33,105 bases of DNA from Candidatus Gastranaerophilales bacterium (GTDB lineage: Bacteria > Cyanobacteriota > Vampirovibrionia > Gastranaerophilales > Gastranaerophilaceae). The notes under the pieces were generated by a model. The model had not been told where the DNA came from and did not search any database. It saw only the letters and a list, made by a program, of their open reading frames with translations. Of this stretch, positions 1,601-27,739 are shown piece by piece. The stretch is from contig CALVAL010000016.1 of the NCBI GenBank assembly GCA_944325535.1, forward strand, positions 1 to 33,105. The letters are read 5' to 3'. The position numbers and the translations under genes were made by a program. Numbering within the stretch: the stretch's first letter is position 1; each line of letters opens with the position of its first letter.

Positions 1601-3592
1601 ATGAAAATTAATGCTAACACCCAATATAACCAACAATTCAATGGTCGTATAGGGAAATTCAAAACACCAGGTTTCGCAACAAAATTAGAAGATGTGCGTT
1701 CAAAAGCATCTTTAATTTTAGAACAAAACTATAACGATATTTTATCTCTAACAAAGGGGGCAGGAGAAAAAAGAATAGACTTTTTTGACTCTCTTGTTCA
1801 GTTATATACTACAAAATATTTTTATAATTTCAAGAATAAAGAAAATTCAAACATAGTAAATACAATATATCAAAATATAAAAAAACCAAAAAACATTCAC
1901 ATTAATATAGTCAAAAATTTTAAGAATTCTCTTGAAAGCTTAAACCAAATTTTGATAGCAGCAGGTAATAGTACTAAAAAGCTAAAATTCGCACAAAATA
2001 TTAATAACTTAATAGAAAATGATGAAAACTTAGCTGCGCAATTATTGAACTCAAAACATAATAGATTTTATGTCAATAATTTTAATAAAATAAAATCATA
2101 TCTTATTTTAAATCAAGATAACCCAAATTCTATAAATGATTTAGAAAAAATGGTTGAAACTAATACTTTTAACCATAAAACCTACGATAACACTTTAAAA
2201 ATAAAAAATATTTTACAGGATCTTATATATAGTGATATTGATAAGTCAACCACTGAGCTTTTCATTAAAAATTATTCAAAACCAAGAGTAAAATTATTAC
2301 AAACTATTCAAGATAAATATACTAATATAAATAGCAAAGTAGATTCAAATGATGAAAATGAAATTTTATCAATGTATTTATCTACTAACAAAAACAACAT
2401 AAAATTAAGAAACAAAATTATAGAGTATTTTAACCAAAACTACAATTTTATTAAAAGCCAAGATGAAAATAGCGCTTTTTTGAAAAATATAAATACTATT
2501 TTTAAAATAGCAGATAGTGGTGATAAACATGCAAAAAATTATCTAAAAAAACTAACTAACTCTAAAGATATTCTATTCTCAGATCCTAAAGAAGTTGTAG
2601 ATATTCTTAATGAGGTTCCTACTAAAAAATTAAATATTTTCTTCGAAAACTCTAAAAGAATAATACAAGCTACTAAAAAAGAGAATAGAATCGATGAATT
2701 AAAAAATAATATTTCAAAACTACAGTTACCAAAAAATAATAAACTTGCTTTAAAATACGGCTACACAACAAAAGAAAATATCTTCAAAAAAGCATATTTA
2801 TACATATCAAACACCCTTAATCTTATAAGGGATAAATTAACAAAAGATACTAAACCTTTAAGTTTGAAAACTAATGAAAACATTACAGCTCCAATAAAAA
2901 ATATTGAAAAAGAAATCGTAAAAACAAATCCTATTGTAGAAAATTTAAATCAAGTTCAGTCAAATACAAAATCAGAAATTAAAACAACTTCCCAGCAGGA
3001 AAAATCTATCATTAATTTAGAAAATAAATCTAAAGAAAAAACAATTAATAATGACAAACCAATTAAAAAAGAAAATGTCTTGAAAAAAATGACTTCAAGA
3101 TTTGAAAAAATACAAAAACAAGATGCTTTACACCAAAATATCATATCATTTATAAGCAAAAAACTTGGAGCAAAAACCTTTTCTAATCAACGAGAAAAAT
3201 TCGTAGAAAATGCAACAAAGATGAGATATGAAATGTTACCTGAAATATTCGCTTCAATTTCAGATACAAGAAAAGCTGATAGAGCTGTCGGAAAATATAG
3301 AATAAATTCTGCAAATAAAGATGCATTAAATTTATACTTAAAAATTAATGGAAATAATAAAAAATTTGTCAATTACTTACTAAAAAAACGTAACGTAGAT
3401 GGCAGTAGAATGTTCGAAGTAAAAGATATTATCAGTATGCTTGACAAAGCTGAGCAACAGATAAAAAAACAAAGACAAAATAATCCTGAATATCGTGCAA
3501 GAGATGTAAGAAAATACTATAACCATCTTTTAGAATCAAAAATCGAACAATATGGCAAAGTAACTCGTCAAAAAAGTAAAAAAACAAAATAA
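1601..3592 (+). CDS. Large Lys/Asn-rich orphan protein with MKIN-type N-terminus
   Basis: 663 residues, very rich in Lys, Asn, Ile and Glu, with no membrane segment or signal peptide. AGGAG with usual spacing precedes the ATG. I recognise no family. The N-terminus (MKINANTQYNQQFNG, then GKFKT at 18-22) resembles the motif on four other orphans in this window. The middle is mostly helical by composition. A low-complexity Lys/Asn/Glu linker lies around 420-495, and a more basic, better ordered C-terminal part around 495-663 contains the blocks RKADRAVGKYRI and EYRARDVRKYY. The linker suggests two folded parts joined flexibly. It stands alone between nuoN and the next operon. Coding is secure; function is unknown. 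Confidence 0.8.
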   Translation: MKINANTQYNQQFNGRIGKFKTPGFATKLEDVRSKASLILEQNYNDILSLTKGAGEKRIDFFDSLVQLYTTKYFYNFKNKENSNIVNTIYQNIKKPKNIHINIVKNFKNSLESLNQILIAAGNSTKKLKFAQNINNLIENDENLAAQLLNSKHNRFYVNNFNKIKSYLILNQDNPNSINDLEKMVETNTFNHKTYDNTLKIKNILQDLIYSDIDKSTTELFIKNYSKPRVKLLQTIQDKYTNINSKVDSNDENEILSMYLSTNKNNIKLRNKIIEYFNQNYNFIKSQDENSAFLKNINTIFKIADSGDKHAKNYLKKLTNSKDILFSDPKEVVDILNEVPTKKLNIFFENSKRIIQATKKENRIDELKNNISKLQLPKNNKLALKYGYTTKENIFKKAYLYISNTLNLIRDKLTKDTKPLSLKTNENITAPIKNIEKEIVKTNPIVENLNQVQSNTKSEIKTTSQQEKSIINLENKSKEKTINNDKPIKKENVLKKMTSRFEKIQKQDALHQNIISFISKKLGAKTFSNQREKFVENATKMRYEMLPEIFASISDTRKADRAVGKYRINSANKDALNLYLKINGNNKKFVNYLLKKRNVDGSRMFEVKDIISMLDKAEQQIKKQRQNNPEYRARDVRKYYNHLLESKIEQYGKVTRQKSKKTK

Positions 3593-7358: not shown

Positions 7359-7724
7359 ATGACAAATGAAATTAATCTAAATCAACCCCAAGTAAGATCA
7401 AGCTTTTATCAAAAAGAAATGAAATTTGACTTTTCTTCAAGAGTCAACTCAAATCAAGCTTTTGAAATAAAAGAAGAAATGTATGAGCAATCATCAGTAT
7501 ATGAAAAAGCTCCTGAAACTGATTTATCAAAATTCGACTATAATGAATATTTTGAATACTGTAAAGCAAATGCCGTATCAAACACTCCTGATAGTGGAAA
7601 AACTGTTGTTGACAGAACACAAGGTTATGAGTCAGTAAGGATTATGAACTTTGGAAAAGCGCTTGGCTCTTATGCAAATACTAACGTTAATTACTCAACA
7701 TCACAAATCAACAGTTATACATAA
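7359..7724 (+). CDS. Small orphan protein, Ser/Asn/Tyr-rich
   Basis: 121 residues, soluble, with no domain I know. GAGGTG at 7348-7353 precedes the ATG. The N-terminal 30 residues contain INLNQPQVRSSF and MKFDFSS. These are only loosely like the MQIN/NFKG-type N-termini of other orphans here, so I do not count it firmly among them. The tail is rich in Asn, Ser and Thr with tyrosines. It is a single-gene unit with its own promoter and a strong terminator, which supports it being real. Confidence 0.65.
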   Translation: MTNEINLNQPQVRSSFYQKEMKFDFSSRVNSNQAFEIKEEMYEQSSVYEKAPETDLSKFDYNEYFEYCKANAVSNTPDSGKTVVDRTQGYESVRIMNFGKALGSYANTNVNYSTSQINSYT

Positions 7725-10172: not shown

Positions 10173-10601
10173 ATGCAAATTAACAACATTCAATCAAGTA
10201 ATTTAAACTCTAAAAATCCTAACTTTGGAGCTCTTAAAAAAGTTAAATTTAAAGGCTATTATAAAAACTGTGATGCTAGACTGCAACAAAAACTACTAAA
10301 TGCACTCCACGAAAGCAAAGCTTTTAGAAACTTTTTCAACAAATACGACGGCACCGTAACATTTGAAGCCCAAAATGGATTTAGTGGTCTAGGTATACAA
10401 AGTACATTTGCCTATATGGATATAAAATATAAAACTAAAAATGATTTTCTTTCTTTTATGCAATCTCCAAAATGTTTTACACTCTCTGCTGGTGAAAATC
10501 ATTATGGTAAATTTTATCAAGTAACTAAAAACCTAGCTAACACTATCAAACATGCTTCTACTAGAGATGTATTCAATGCATCTAAAAACATATACAAATA
10601 A
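10173..10601 (+). CDS. Orphan protein with MQIN...FKG N-terminus
   Basis: 142 residues, no family recognised, no signal peptide or membrane helix. AGGAG at 10161-10165 supports the ATG. The first 28 residues fit the window's recurring N-terminal pattern: MQINNI, an Asn/Ser-rich stretch, NPNFGA (15-20) and VKFKG (24-28). The rest looks like a compact mixed alpha/beta domain (YDGTVTFEAQNGFSG, then TFAYMDIKYKT). It is a lone gene divergent from metX and is closed by the terminator at 10631. Confidence 0.72.
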   Translation: MQINNIQSSNLNSKNPNFGALKKVKFKGYYKNCDARLQQKLLNALHESKAFRNFFNKYDGTVTFEAQNGFSGLGIQSTFAYMDIKYKTKNDFLSFMQSPKCFTLSAGENHYGKFYQVTKNLANTIKHASTRDVFNASKNIYK

Positions 10602-20143: not shown

Positions 20144-21313
20144 TTATTTTGTTCTTAGTTCTCCATCTGTTATAGAAATATTATCTTTAGCTTTTTGTAA
20201 ATATTCAAATTTAAATACTTTACTCTTATCTTTAAGCTTATCTTCCAAATAATAATTTTTAGAAGTTTCCACAACGTTTTCCAAATTTCTAAATGAATAT
20301 TGTTTTGATTCCATCTCTTTGGCAAGTTCTTTTAAATTACTTTCGTTAGCCTGAAAAAAAGCATCGCTATTTTTTATATTCTTCAAATTTGTTTTTAAAG
20401 CTTCATATAAGCAGTCTTTATCAGGCAAAGGAACTTCCTTAATATTTTTAAATCTACTCATTGCTGCACCATCAAGCGCATTATTTTTGGGAGATAAATT
20501 TGTAGTCCCAACTACAATGACATTAGGAGTCTTTGTACTCAATTCATCCATATAATTTAAAAATGCTGAGCGATGTTCTAATTTAGTCATAAAGTATGAT
20601 CCCCCAGTATGCTCAGTCATTTTTTCTATTGGTTGTACTATTGTATCAATTTCATTAAAAGTTACTACATATCTCTTCTGAGGATTTTCTTGAGCAGTTT
20701 TAATAATACTCTCAAAAATTCTTTTCAAATTATCAGTTCCCTTACCTGCCCATTCAGAATTAAAATCAGAATGTTTTACCTCCATGTATTCAGCATTTAA
20801 TGTTTTAGCATATATTTTTGCAAAAAATGATTTTCCTGTTCCTGGAGAACCATATAATAATAAACGATTTGTAACTTCTGGAGCTCCTACTTCTTTTAGT
20901 AGACCTGAATCTGCTCTATTATAATTGAGTTGATGTTGTAAAAAATCTTTTAAATTCGTATTAAGACTTTTACAGTTCTCTAGTGTTGGAATTTTTATAT
21001 CATTAGCCAAAGATGTAAATTCTAAAATTGCTTTTTGTAGTTTAGGAGACTTTTTCTTTGCAAGTGCCATATCATAGTTTACGATTGCATTCGACGTTAC
21101 TGGAATTAGCAAAGCCGTCGCAAAACAAGCAGTGCTGAAAGCAGCACCTAAAAGAATTTTATTACGCTTATCATTTTGAGCTTCTTGTTTTTTGAAATGC
21201 TCATTTATCGAATTTAAAATACTTAAATTATTATCAACATTTTGTTGATTATTCTTAAAAGATAAATAACTTTTATACTTATAGTTATTAATTTGCGTAA
21301 TTGGCTGAATCAT
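20144..21313 (-). CDS. Membrane-anchored AAA+ ATPase with MIQPITQINN...SFKN N-terminus
   Basis: 389 residues. The first 22 residues carry the window's recurring N-terminal pattern (QINN, then LSFKN). One hydrophobic segment at about 52-75 could anchor it. The AAA+ core starts near 130: Walker A GSPGTGKS (155-162), Walker B VVTFNEID (216-223), sensor 1 GTTN (N272) and an arginine-finger-like R287 in AAMSRF. Walker B has Asn220 where most AAA+ proteins have Asp, while the catalytic Glu221 is kept. The core resembles FtsH/Cdc48-type remodelling ATPases but lacks the protease domain. The substrate is unknown. It is adjacent to two further orphan genes with the same N-terminal pattern. Confidence 0.85.
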   Translation of the reverse strand: MIQPITQINNYKYKSYLSFKNNQQNVDNNLSILNSINEHFKKQEAQNDKRNKILLGAAFSTACFATALLIPVTSNAIVNYDMALAKKKSPKLQKAILEFTSLANDIKIPTLENCKSLNTNLKDFLQHQLNYNRADSGLLKEVGAPEVTNRLLLYGSPGTGKSFFAKIYAKTLNAEYMEVKHSDFNSEWAGKGTDNLKRIFESIIKTAQENPQKRYVVTFNEIDTIVQPIEKMTEHTGGSYFMTKLEHRSAFLNYMDELSTKTPNVIVVGTTNLSPKNNALDGAAMSRFKNIKEVPLPDKDCLYEALKTNLKNIKNSDAFFQANESNLKELAKEMESKQYSFRNLENVVETSKNYYLEDKLKDKSKVFKFEYLQKAKDNISITDGELRTK

Positions 21314-21377
21314 TTGCTTAATACTCCTTATATACTAAAAGAGATGTATACTTTTATACATCTCTCTTCTCAATAAT

Positions 21378-21737
21378 CTAATAATCACGGTGATTAGGAT
21401 ACATTGGATCATAATCATCCGTCTCGTTATCATCTCCTGGACGAATTTTATGATCTATCATATCTCCACCTATGGCACCTGAGGCACAACCTAAAGCTCC
21501 TAAAAGTAGAGGTGCTGCTAATCCTCCAGTCGCAGCTGTTGCAATTGCTCCTAAACCAATTCCAGCTAATGTGCCGACAACACTACCTATAGAACCTCCA
21601 TATCTTGCTTTTCCACTAAAATTTACATTATCATTTTTAGTTGGAATAGTTTGCGTACTGTTAGCATTCATTTGGTTTTGTTTTTTACCTATATTAACTC
21701 TATTATAGTTAATATTATTAATTGCTGAAATTCTCAT
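21378..21737 (-). CDS. Glycine-zipper small protein with MRIS.INNIN N-terminus
   Basis: 119 residues. The N-terminus MRISAINNIN with VNFSGK at 38-43 follows the recurring pattern. Residues 46-95 form a Gly/Ala-rich hydrophobic stretch (GGSIGSVVGTLAGIGLGAIA, then GGLAAPLLLGALG) with small residues at regular spacing, a glycine zipper able to pack as membrane hairpin helices. The tail is acidic (GDDNETDDYDP). GGAGA with usual spacing precedes the ATG. Such domains occur in outer-membrane proteins, colicin-like proteins and mechanosensitive proteins; which applies is unknown. It lies 64 bases upstream of the AAA+ gene, so cotranscription is likely. Confidence 0.75.
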   Translation of the reverse strand: MRISAINNINYNRVNIGKKQNQMNANSTQTIPTKNDNVNFSGKARYGGSIGSVVGTLAGIGLGAIATAATGGLAAPLLLGALGCASGAIGGDMIDHKIRPGDDNETDDYDPMYPNHRDY

Positions 21738-21803
21738 CGACTATTCTCCTTCAAGAGCACAATATCATATATAAAAAGTATTGTCAATTAGGAGTTATTA
21801 ACA

Positions 21804-21830
21804 ATAAAAAAACTAAGCTTTACGCTTAGT
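21804..21830 (-). terminator. Intrinsic terminator after tRNA-Gly
   Basis: On the minus strand ACTAAGC (21830-21824), a five-base loop and GCTTAGT (21818-21812) are followed by a run of T (complement of the A run at 21805-21811). It ends the tRNA-Gly transcript. Confidence 0.8.
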
Positions 21831-21861
21831 CTGTTTTTATCTTCTCATATTTATTTTTAAA

Positions 21862-21936
21862 TGGAGCGGGAGACGAGGCTCGAACTCGCGACATCCTCCT
21901 TGGCAAGGAGGCATTCTACCACTGAATTACCCCCGC
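21862..21936 (-). tRNA. tRNA-Gly (GCC anticodon), CCA encoded
   Basis: Read on the minus strand from 21936: acceptor GCGGGGG, D-arm TTCAGTGGTAGAA, anticodon arm CCTCC-TTGCCAA-GGAGG with GCC, T-arm GCGAG-TTCGAGC-CTCGT, acceptor CTCCCGC, discriminator T, then an encoded CCA (21864-21862). All stems pair, with one G-U in the acceptor and one in the T stem. It has its own promoter (22004-22031) and terminator. Confidence 0.96.
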
Positions 21937-22003
21937 GAATAATTCACCAAGCTTATTGGGGCTGCTACTGACCGAACCATTTACCCCCGCTCGGTATATT
22001 TTT

Positions 22004-22031
22004 ATAATACATGCTAAGTTTTTAATGTCAA
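22004..22031 (-). promoter_or_regulatory. Promoter of tRNA-Gly
   Basis: On the minus strand a perfect TTGACA (22031-22026), a 16-base spacer and TATTAT (22009-22004) stand about 70 bases upstream of the tRNA. Transcription would start near 21997, giving a 5' leader of about 60 bases to be cut by RNase P. Confidence 0.75.
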
Positions 22032-22070
22032 GCGATTGAATATTATGAAAATGAAATTTTGATAAATTAG

Positions 22071-22730
22071 CTATCTATAAAGCTTTTCTAAGGGATTTCC
22101 CTTGCCTTGAGCAGGTAAAAATCTAGCATCGACCAAGCGATAATCCTTTATTTTCCCAAGCTTATTTCTTACAATCTCAAACTTCGTATGCAAAATATAT
22201 CTCATTCCTTTATCATCTTTAATAGAATTTCGATAATCATTCACATAATCAAGCCCTTTTCTGTTATATAATTTTATAGCTTCTACAGTCTCAGGAGAGT
22301 ATGGATTATTTAAAAGCTCTTTTGCATTATGCTTTGCTTTACCTATTCCTTTTGCTAAATAAGTTTCAAAATCATCTACATTTGCTCCTGAAATCATATA
22401 GGAAACTGGTGAGTATTTGTCAACGCTTCCAGAAAAACGGTTATAGAATGAACGAACCTTGGGTAAATTTCTATAATCGATATCAGAAGCTCCAACGTAA
22501 GCTCTTAGCTTTTGTTCAGCAACATTTAGAGGTTTAGTAATTTCACTAAGCGGCTTGTTTAAGACTCTTACAATCTTGCCTTGGAGTTTTTTTACAATAT
22601 CCAAATTAGCAACTGGTGCATAGCTGCTATTAGCTTCTGCAACCCAATGCACAACCGGATAAGTTGATTTAAAATTTACCCCTTGAGTTTTATTTTGGAT
22701 ACTTAAATTATTTATAGAATTTATTTGCAT
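22071..22730 (-). CDS. Orphan protein with MQINSINN...VNFKS N-terminus
   Basis: 219 residues, no known family. The N-terminus MQINSINNLSIQNKTQ with VNFKS at 18-22 is the clearest case of the recurring pattern. The rest looks helical and basic in the C-terminal part (TKFEIVRNKLGKIKDYRLVD). No signal peptide or membrane segment is evident. No strong ribosome site is visible directly before the ATG. It precedes the tRNA-Gly gene, the glycine-zipper gene and the AAA+ gene on the same strand; the tRNA promoter starts inside the gap after it, so it is a separate unit. Confidence 0.72.
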   Translation of the reverse strand: MQINSINNLSIQNKTQGVNFKSTYPVVHWVAEANSSYAPVANLDIVKKLQGKIVRVLNKPLSEITKPLNVAEQKLRAYVGASDIDYRNLPKVRSFYNRFSGSVDKYSPVSYMISGANVDDFETYLAKGIGKAKHNAKELLNNPYSPETVEAIKLYNRKGLDYVNDYRNSIKDDKGMRYILHTKFEIVRNKLGKIKDYRLVDARFLPAQGKGNPLEKLYR

Positions 22731-27262: not shown

Positions 27263-27739
27263 ATGAGTACAGCTGAATCAATCGGGCCATATTCTCCGAC
27301 GACAATATACGGACAATTGACGTCGCCGTTTACGCCCAAATTAGTTTCAATAAATTCTCATACGCCTTTTGACAAAACAAACGAAGAAGAGTCAAAGGTA
27401 TTTTCTCGTGATTATTTTGAAGGCAGACCAGTGGCAAGAATGAAGTATTCATTGCCAGAAACAGCACCTGCAGAAATAACTAAATATCAACCAGAACAAC
27501 AAAATTCAAATAATACTAATAATGATACAAAGCAAAGTGAAAAGCCTCAGACAGAATTAACTGCATTTTCTATGTCTGCAACATCATCAAGTGATATTGT
27601 GAAAAGCTCATTAAAACAAGGTTATTCAACTGAACAAGCTGTTGTAATTAGCAAGGCTCAAAGTGCTTATCAAAGGAGCGCAACATTAACAAAAGATCCT
27701 GTTGGCGTATTAGGCTCTTGCAATTATATGGTTTCTTAA
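27263..27739 (+). CDS. Small orphan protein with Gln/Asn/Ser-rich linker
   Basis: 158 residues, soluble, no family recognised. It has an N-terminal Pro/Thr/Ser-rich half, a low-complexity middle (about 78-95, Gln/Asn) and a helical C-terminal part (SDIVKSSLKQGYSTEQAVVISKAQSAY). The ribosome site is weak (AGAG). It lies upstream of the oxidoreductase operon but has a promoter-like element in its own 5' region, and a further promoter follows it, so it is probably an independent unit. Confidence 0.6.
   Translation: MSTAESIGPYSPTTIYGQLTSPFTPKLVSINSHTPFDKTNEEESKVFSRDYFEGRPVARMKYSLPETAPAEITKYQPEQQNSNNTNNDTKQSEKPQTELTAFSMSATSSSDIVKSSLKQGYSTEQAVVISKAQSAYQRSATLTKDPVGVLGSCNYMVS

Follow-up and report, generated by a model that had tools for sequence, protein, structure and literature searches.

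Salmonella effectors share a conserved N-terminal translocation motif, WEK(I/M)xxFF, and the encapsulation peptides of bacterial microcompartments are amphipathic helices that form a short N-terminal tag, followed by a linker, on metabolic enzymes. Known N-terminal signals of type III secretion systems (T3SSs) are described as highly mutable; the patterns reported for substrates of Pseudomonas syringae are an aliphatic residue or Pro at position 3 or 4, no acidic residue in the first 12 positions, and over 10% Ser in the first 50 (PMC3338616). In Chlamydia, the N-termini of the glycogen enzymes GlgA, GlgB, GlgX, GlgP, and MalQ act as T3SS signals (PMC4829429). Here we describe a short N-terminal "head" on five otherwise unrelated proteins encoded in 33,105 nucleotides of a Candidatus Gastranaerophilales genome (contig CALVAL010000016.1, positions 1 to 33,105; this whole stretch is the window), and on many other proteins of the same order. 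The head consists of M-x-I, a variable, Asn-rich and acid-poor linker, and [IVNSTP]-x-F-[KRSG]-[AGSN] (the F-motif). It thus has two anchors: one at the extreme start and a second, of the form hydrophobic/polar-x-F-[K/R/S/G]-[A/G/S/N], at about residue 11-42. We found no published description of it in the open-access PMC literature. We think that the head is very probably a sorting signal of some kind, either for T3SS export or for docking inside the cell. Our preferred reading, to which we give a probability of roughly 0.4 on sequence evidence, is that it is an N-terminal T3SS export signal that is specific to Ca. Gastranaerophilales, with the divergent one of two T3SS gene sets as the favored carrier.

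Like the N-terminal signals of P. syringae effectors and of flagellar and injectisome substrates, the head is N-terminal, apparently unstructured, and aliphatic at position 3 or 4; it has few acids near the start and is found on unrelated bodies in genomes that contain T3SS genes. Unlike those signals, it has a conserved F-[KR]-[AGS] anchor and is enriched in Asn instead of Ser. The chlamydial glycogen enzymes belong to the same classes as some head proteins (GH77, glycogen-synthase-like, and amylase-like) and also have a non-Sec N-terminal stretch, but in our case the tagged GH77 is additional to a housekeeping GH77 that has no head. The Salmonella motif is likewise short, near the N-terminus, and shared by diverse bodies, but the head has a different motif and is carried by a much greater fraction of the proteome, in an order of gut commensals. 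Encapsulation peptides resemble the head as short N-terminal tags with a linker on metabolic enzymes, but the head is predicted to be unfolded (in the one case modelled) and has the F-motif.

To count heads, we required M-x(1-3)-[IV] plus a tight F-motif. The window's genome was sampled in 20 pieces of 20 kb each, which cover about a fifth of it, and congeners, other families of the order, sister genera, and other orders were sampled in a comparable way. Genes were called by a simple codon-usage caller, with approximate starts, and the comparisons between clades are of raw counts that ignore phylogeny. One control was to permute residues 2-60 (shuffles), and the other was to consider the windows that follow an internal Met. 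In the window's genome, 24 of 472 genes (5.1%) have a head, while shuffles gave 4.5±2.1 (maximum 11). Congeners are similar (39/669, 5.8%; shuffles 7.3±2.6). The signal is weaker in families f2-f7 of the order (17/459; shuffles 5.1±2.3), and it is at chance level in the sister genera g15-24 (2/366; shuffles 3.6±1.7) and in the other orders (1/291; shuffles 2.6±1.5). Internal-Met windows match in just 0.9% of cases in the window's own genome and 0.7% in congeners, versus the 5.1% and 5.8% at true N-termini. Roughly one protein in twenty, or on the order of 100 proteins per genome, has a head, and heads are found across the order. An earlier note on the window, made from its sequence alone, had listed five cases; these are real, but the head extends far beyond them.

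Because the definition of the head joins two features, which raises the issue of circularity, we also examined the starts of proteins that were picked by the F-motif alone. I or V is at position 3 in 57% of these and in 19% of the rest (p=1.4e-11), and acidic residues are absent from positions 2-12 in 64% versus 26% (p=1.6e-10). A tighter form of the motif, [VI]NF[KSG][GAS], has 7 occurrences within the first 60 residues of proteins and none among about 100,000 positions in bodies. In the linker, the frequency of Asn is doubled (16% versus 8%) and those of Asp and Glu are halved. The earlier note had proposed enrichment at N-termini beyond composition as the test of its own claim; we ran this test, and the enrichment survived the shuffles, the internal-Met windows, and the selection by F-motif alone. 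As the tight form is absent from bodies and the controls were passed, the head is not an artefact of AT-rich composition, which is also ruled out by the sister genera, as they are equally AT-rich (GC content 0.34).

The bodies behind the head are diverse: a hand-picked list of 106 head proteins falls into 68 BLAST sequence families, which bears out the suggestion that a short conserved head is found on unrelated bodies. These include AAA+ ATPases (with a transmembrane segment just after the head), glycine-zipper proteins, UshA/NadN-type nucleotidases, DSP phosphatases, GalE-, GlgA-, GH77- and amylase-like enzymes, transglutaminase-, HAD-, acyltransferase-, hydrolase-, and CheR-like proteins, and many orphans. 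We aligned 13 orthologues of an orphan from the window (the 22071 protein, named for the end of its gene) and 10 of the head-bearing GH77. In both sets, the initial M, residue 3 (I/V/L, with one S), and the F of the motif (as F-[KQ/G/T]) are kept. The position of this F varies because the linker gains and loses residues, from 12 to 20 in the orphan's orthologues and from about 11 to 27 in those of the GH77. Pairwise identity is about 0.8-0.85 at residue 3 and 1.0 at the F, but 0-0.4 in most columns of the linker.

Some of these families have both headed and headless members. The most telling case is GH77: all 10 of the extra GH77 copies of the window's genus are headed, and they are about 56-66% identical to the copy in the window's genome. 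The extra copy coexists with the housekeeping GH77 of the order's genomes, which is headless and begins directly with the enzyme. A phosphoglycerate-mutase-like protein (L236) has a head, while a relative elsewhere in the order (L097) lacks it. All four copies of UshA/NadN-type nucleotidases that we saw have a head and no Sec signal, although members of this family are exported as a rule. More broadly, only 1 of the 106 head proteins has a transmembrane-like segment that starts before residue 40, versus about a fifth of other genes (this is partly a selection effect), which agrees with the earlier report that no standard signal peptide is present. We also noticed four tandem head paralogues that start with MLNINP(I/M)(D/N)xYxKSNxxFKSQ(R/K)D and have diverging bodies, apparently due to a recent expansion (L005:15286-18134). 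Another run of head genes (GalE-like, GlgA-like, a 1615-amino-acid amylase-like protein, and a relative of the AAA family; L084:9874-19901) lies close behind the gene for FliI2, and an amylase-like or GalE-like gene is retained beside FliI2 in several congeners.

These genomes encode two sets of T3SS genes. FlhA-family proteins are present in 37 of 37 genomes searched, and nearly all of the genomes have two full-length ones. The first set is canonical flagellar (fliP-fliQ-fliR-flhB-flhA), and its FlhA passes the flagellar cut-off. The second set is divergent (fliE-fliF-(fliG-like)-fliH-flhA2, with its own FliP and FliI). Thus there are two sets of FlhA, FliP, FliF, and FliI in the order; the divergent one is also found in the sister genera, and those of the same family have only this set, without FlhA1 and FliP1. 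FliP2 passes the cut-off for FliP (235, cut-off 217), but otherwise the divergent set falls below the flagellar equivalog cut-offs (FlhA2, 704 < 772; FliI2, 568 < 630; FliF2, 124 < 130) and the injectisome ones (SctV, 584 < 692; SctN, 545 < 605; SctJ, 58 < 162). Secretin genes, counted irrespective of their gene context, number one in 16 of 17 genomes of the order and three in the remaining one. A VirB4-type type IV secretion system was not found in 20 genomes. Soo et al. noted that several Gastranaerophilales genomes have only a subset of flagellar genes (PMC4040986), and the divergent set is a possible explanation for this.

There is a third FlhA-family protein, which has only the cytosolic, cargo-docking half of FlhA. 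At L117:5690-7168 (G000:C6:36067-37140), a protein of about 490 amino acids has about 130 residues of its own and then the FlhA cytosolic half, and it occurs in nearly all genomes of the order that were searched; several congeners have further FlhA-C fragments of about 215 amino acids. Between fliQ2 and fliR2, a 113-amino-acid protein has a signal-peptide-like start and no family match (L138:16808-17149).

Several observations connect the head to these systems. Among proteins picked by the F-motif, 59% combine the first two P. syringae patterns (aliphatic or Pro at position 3 or 4; first 12 residues free of acids), versus 17% of others (p=1.2e-13). In 9 loci, head-bearing AAA genes adjoin a family of proteins with the motif MGLxxSQ, whose homologues in the sister genera are in the fliE2-flhA2 region. 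flhB2 lies a few genes from the AAA/glycine-zipper pair in two genomes, and orthologues of the 22071 gene are beside fliOPQ2 in one locus and beside an MGLxxSQ cluster in another. In the MGLxxSQ proteins (L129:4100-5092, L139:4570-5820, and L258:6518-8119), a variable middle is flanked by long helices at the N- and C-termini, as in flagellar axial proteins. The model of this family has low confidence (predicted template-modelling score 0.47), and its fold matches, which include flagellin, are not significant. A flagellar gate motif (FxxxPhi) after the F was not consistent in the alignments, as judged by eye.

If the head is an export signal, then a receptor, most likely part of the type III secretion apparatus, would read the two anchors; the body would be passive cargo, and the cargo would be exported as metabolic and effector-like proteins. 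In favor of this are the enrichment at N-termini only, the co-occurrence of the anchors, the 68 families, and the conservation of the anchors around a free linker; the headed GH77 beside a headless one, the headed nucleotidases without Sec signals, and the agreement with two of the P. syringae patterns; and the two T3SS sets, the MGLxxSQ and fliOPQ2 neighbourhoods, the failure to find a VirB4-type system in 20 genomes, and the precedent from Chlamydia. Several results count against it. The third P. syringae pattern (over 10% Ser in the first 50) is not enriched in the genus (29% of F-motif proteins versus 24% of others, p=0.23). In the sister genera with the divergent set alone, heads are at chance level overall, although a few clear ones remain. 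Other orders that have both T3SS sets show no enrichment, in a small sample. The neighbourhood links amount to few independent events, and some of those loci were chosen by the position of the AAA gene. Glycogen-enzyme, epimerase, phosphoglycerate-mutase-like, and CheR-like bodies are normally cytosolic, and AAA proteins with a transmembrane segment would be odd cargo. Because of these points, the link to either T3SS is circumstantial, and we put the chances that the head is a signal for either set at about even. We favor the divergent set (FlhA2/FliP2/FliF2/FliI2) because it is found throughout the order. However, the scarcity of heads where only this set remains implies that the divergent set alone does not predict heads and, if taken alone, points to the canonical set. 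Indeed, strict heads are about tenfold rarer in the sister genera that lack FlhA1 and FliP1 (2/366 versus 63/1141, p=2e-6, ignoring phylogeny). But this rarity may reflect a single evolutionary loss, heads are missing from the other orders with both sets in our sample, and some clear heads persist in genomes that lack the canonical set, among them those of an AAA orthologue and of small proteins such as MKIQKTQNPINFNG. This last point weakens the case for the canonical flagellum (the FlhA1/FliP1/FliF1 set) as the sole carrier, and we consider export by it to be improbable.

The normally cytosolic enzymes (GH77, GlgA-like, GalE-like, phosphoglycerate-mutase-like, and CheR-like) are easier to understand under the main rival explanation, that the head is a docking tag. 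It would bind a scaffold, granule, membrane microdomain, or protein shell within the cell and would concentrate a side branch of sugar metabolism along with AAA machines. The headed GH77 copy is well conserved over its whole length, and the transmembrane segments of the AAA and glycine-zipper bodies come just after the head. But UshA/NadN-type bodies are extracytoplasmic as a rule, and we identified no shell or scaffold gene (no specific search for one was made), so we view docking as possible but somewhat unlikely. Also doubtful is the idea that Gastranaerophilales have a previously unknown sorting pathway, with a receptor and a destination of its own (a new intracellular body or a new export route), which would read the two anchors as an address added to about a twentieth of the proteome, duplicated sugar enzymes included. 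The head could instead be a leader that is cut off, or a degron that marks proteins for the head-bearing AAA proteins, with F-[KR]-[AGS] as the recognition site for a protease or an AAA protein. Often the folded body follows the motif immediately (as in the 22071 protein and GH77), and searches gave up to 10 AAA matches per genome, some of the FtsH type. But the AAA proteins are themselves headed and we saw no dedicated protease gene beside head genes, which makes this explanation unlikely too. Finally, start regions are rich in Ile, Asn, and Lys in all genes of these genomes, but an effect of composition or of translation starts in an AT-rich genome did not show in the shuffles, the internal-Met windows, or the sister genera, and the anchors are conserved across orthologues; unless the gene starts are wrong, these controls refute it, and we give it very little weight. 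The earlier note had offered targeting, secretion, or processing as the function of the head; it is best read as a targeting tag.

In the window itself, we confirmed the open reading frames, starts, and motifs of all five proteins that were said to share the head (Table 1). An AGGAG-type ribosome-binding site precedes four of the five genes, the exception being the 22071 gene.

Table 1. Heads and bodies of the five window proteins (pLDDT, predicted local distance difference test; TM, transmembrane)
Feature	Coordinates	Strand	Observations
Head of 219-aa orphan (22071 protein), residues 1-22, MQINSINNLSIQNKTQGVNFKS	22665..22730	-	F-motif ends at residue 22; M, I3, F20, and K21 kept in 13 orthologues, linker varies; residues 1-19 pLDDT<50
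Body of 219-aa orphan, folded alpha/beta domain without known relative	22071..22664	-	Model pLDDT 81
Head of glycine-zipper protein, residues 1-42, MRISAINNIN...VNFSG	21612..21737	-	F-motif ends at residue 42; start and F-motif kept in orthologues and paralogues
Glycine-zipper membrane segment and charged tail; partner of AAA gene	21378..21611	-	One hydrophobic segment at 50-68
Head of AAA protein, residues 1-21, MIQPITQINNYKYKSYLSFKN	21251..21313	-	F-motif ends at residue 21; sequence reading
Body of AAA protein, one TM segment (53-71), then CDC48/PAN-like AAA domain	20144..21250	-	PF00004 (E 5e-21), NCBIfam, TM prediction
Head of 142-aa orphan, residues 1-20, MQINNIQSSNLNSKNPNFGA	10173..10232	+	PNFGA ends at residue 20, second F-motif VKFKG at 28; paralogue L012:12482 MQIDKFQTTNSNVQNLNFKA
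Body of 142-aa orphan	10233..10601	+	No significant family match
Head of 663-aa orphan, residues 1-15, MKINANTQYNQQFNG	1601..1645	+	QQFNG ends at residue 15, GKFKT at 22
Body of 663-aa Lys/Asn-rich orphan	1646..3592	+	No significant family match

The AAA domain is the only Pfam or NCBIfam match among the five bodies. We found no protease domain in the AAA protein's body, and this protein had no matches as a query in a first scan of genome contigs; its PADLOC matches are to generic AAA proteins, so we rejected a role in anti-phage defense. In the AlphaFold model of the 22071 protein, residues 1-19 are unfolded and the remainder is a confident domain, for which we found no Pfam, PDB-sequence, phage, or significant fold match. 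Its relatives are confined to its own genus among the genomes sampled and to Gastranaerophilales loci in public records. The publicly named relatives are from Ca. Gastranaerophilales of rumen, horse, and other gut samples. Orthologues of the 22071 gene (L052-L064) share a GTTTTAAT-like stretch in the 16 bases directly upstream of the start, and most have no Shine-Dalgarno site, so they may be leaderless or specially regulated. Two more orphans in the window (7359-7724 and 27263-27739) have no family match and no clear head.

The earlier note had also suggested that the three adjacent genes form one small system in which the ATPase could act on or export the other proteins. We reject this because the gene context is not conserved: orthologues of the 22071 gene mostly lie next to an aminotransferase gene, without the ATPase or glycine-zipper gene, and the ATPase is itself headed. 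The glycine-zipper and AAA genes are adjacent in 8 of 9 loci, and this pair is the sole conserved unit of the trio.

If the head is a T3SS signal, then a common uncultured order of the gut and rumen would have an export machine and a large, unlisted set of exported proteins, and the "incomplete flagella" reported for certain members (PMC4040986) may represent a second system that works. A docking role would instead mean that Gastranaerophilales have an undescribed internal destination. On either reading, the head provides a sequence handle for predicting which proteins share a destination.
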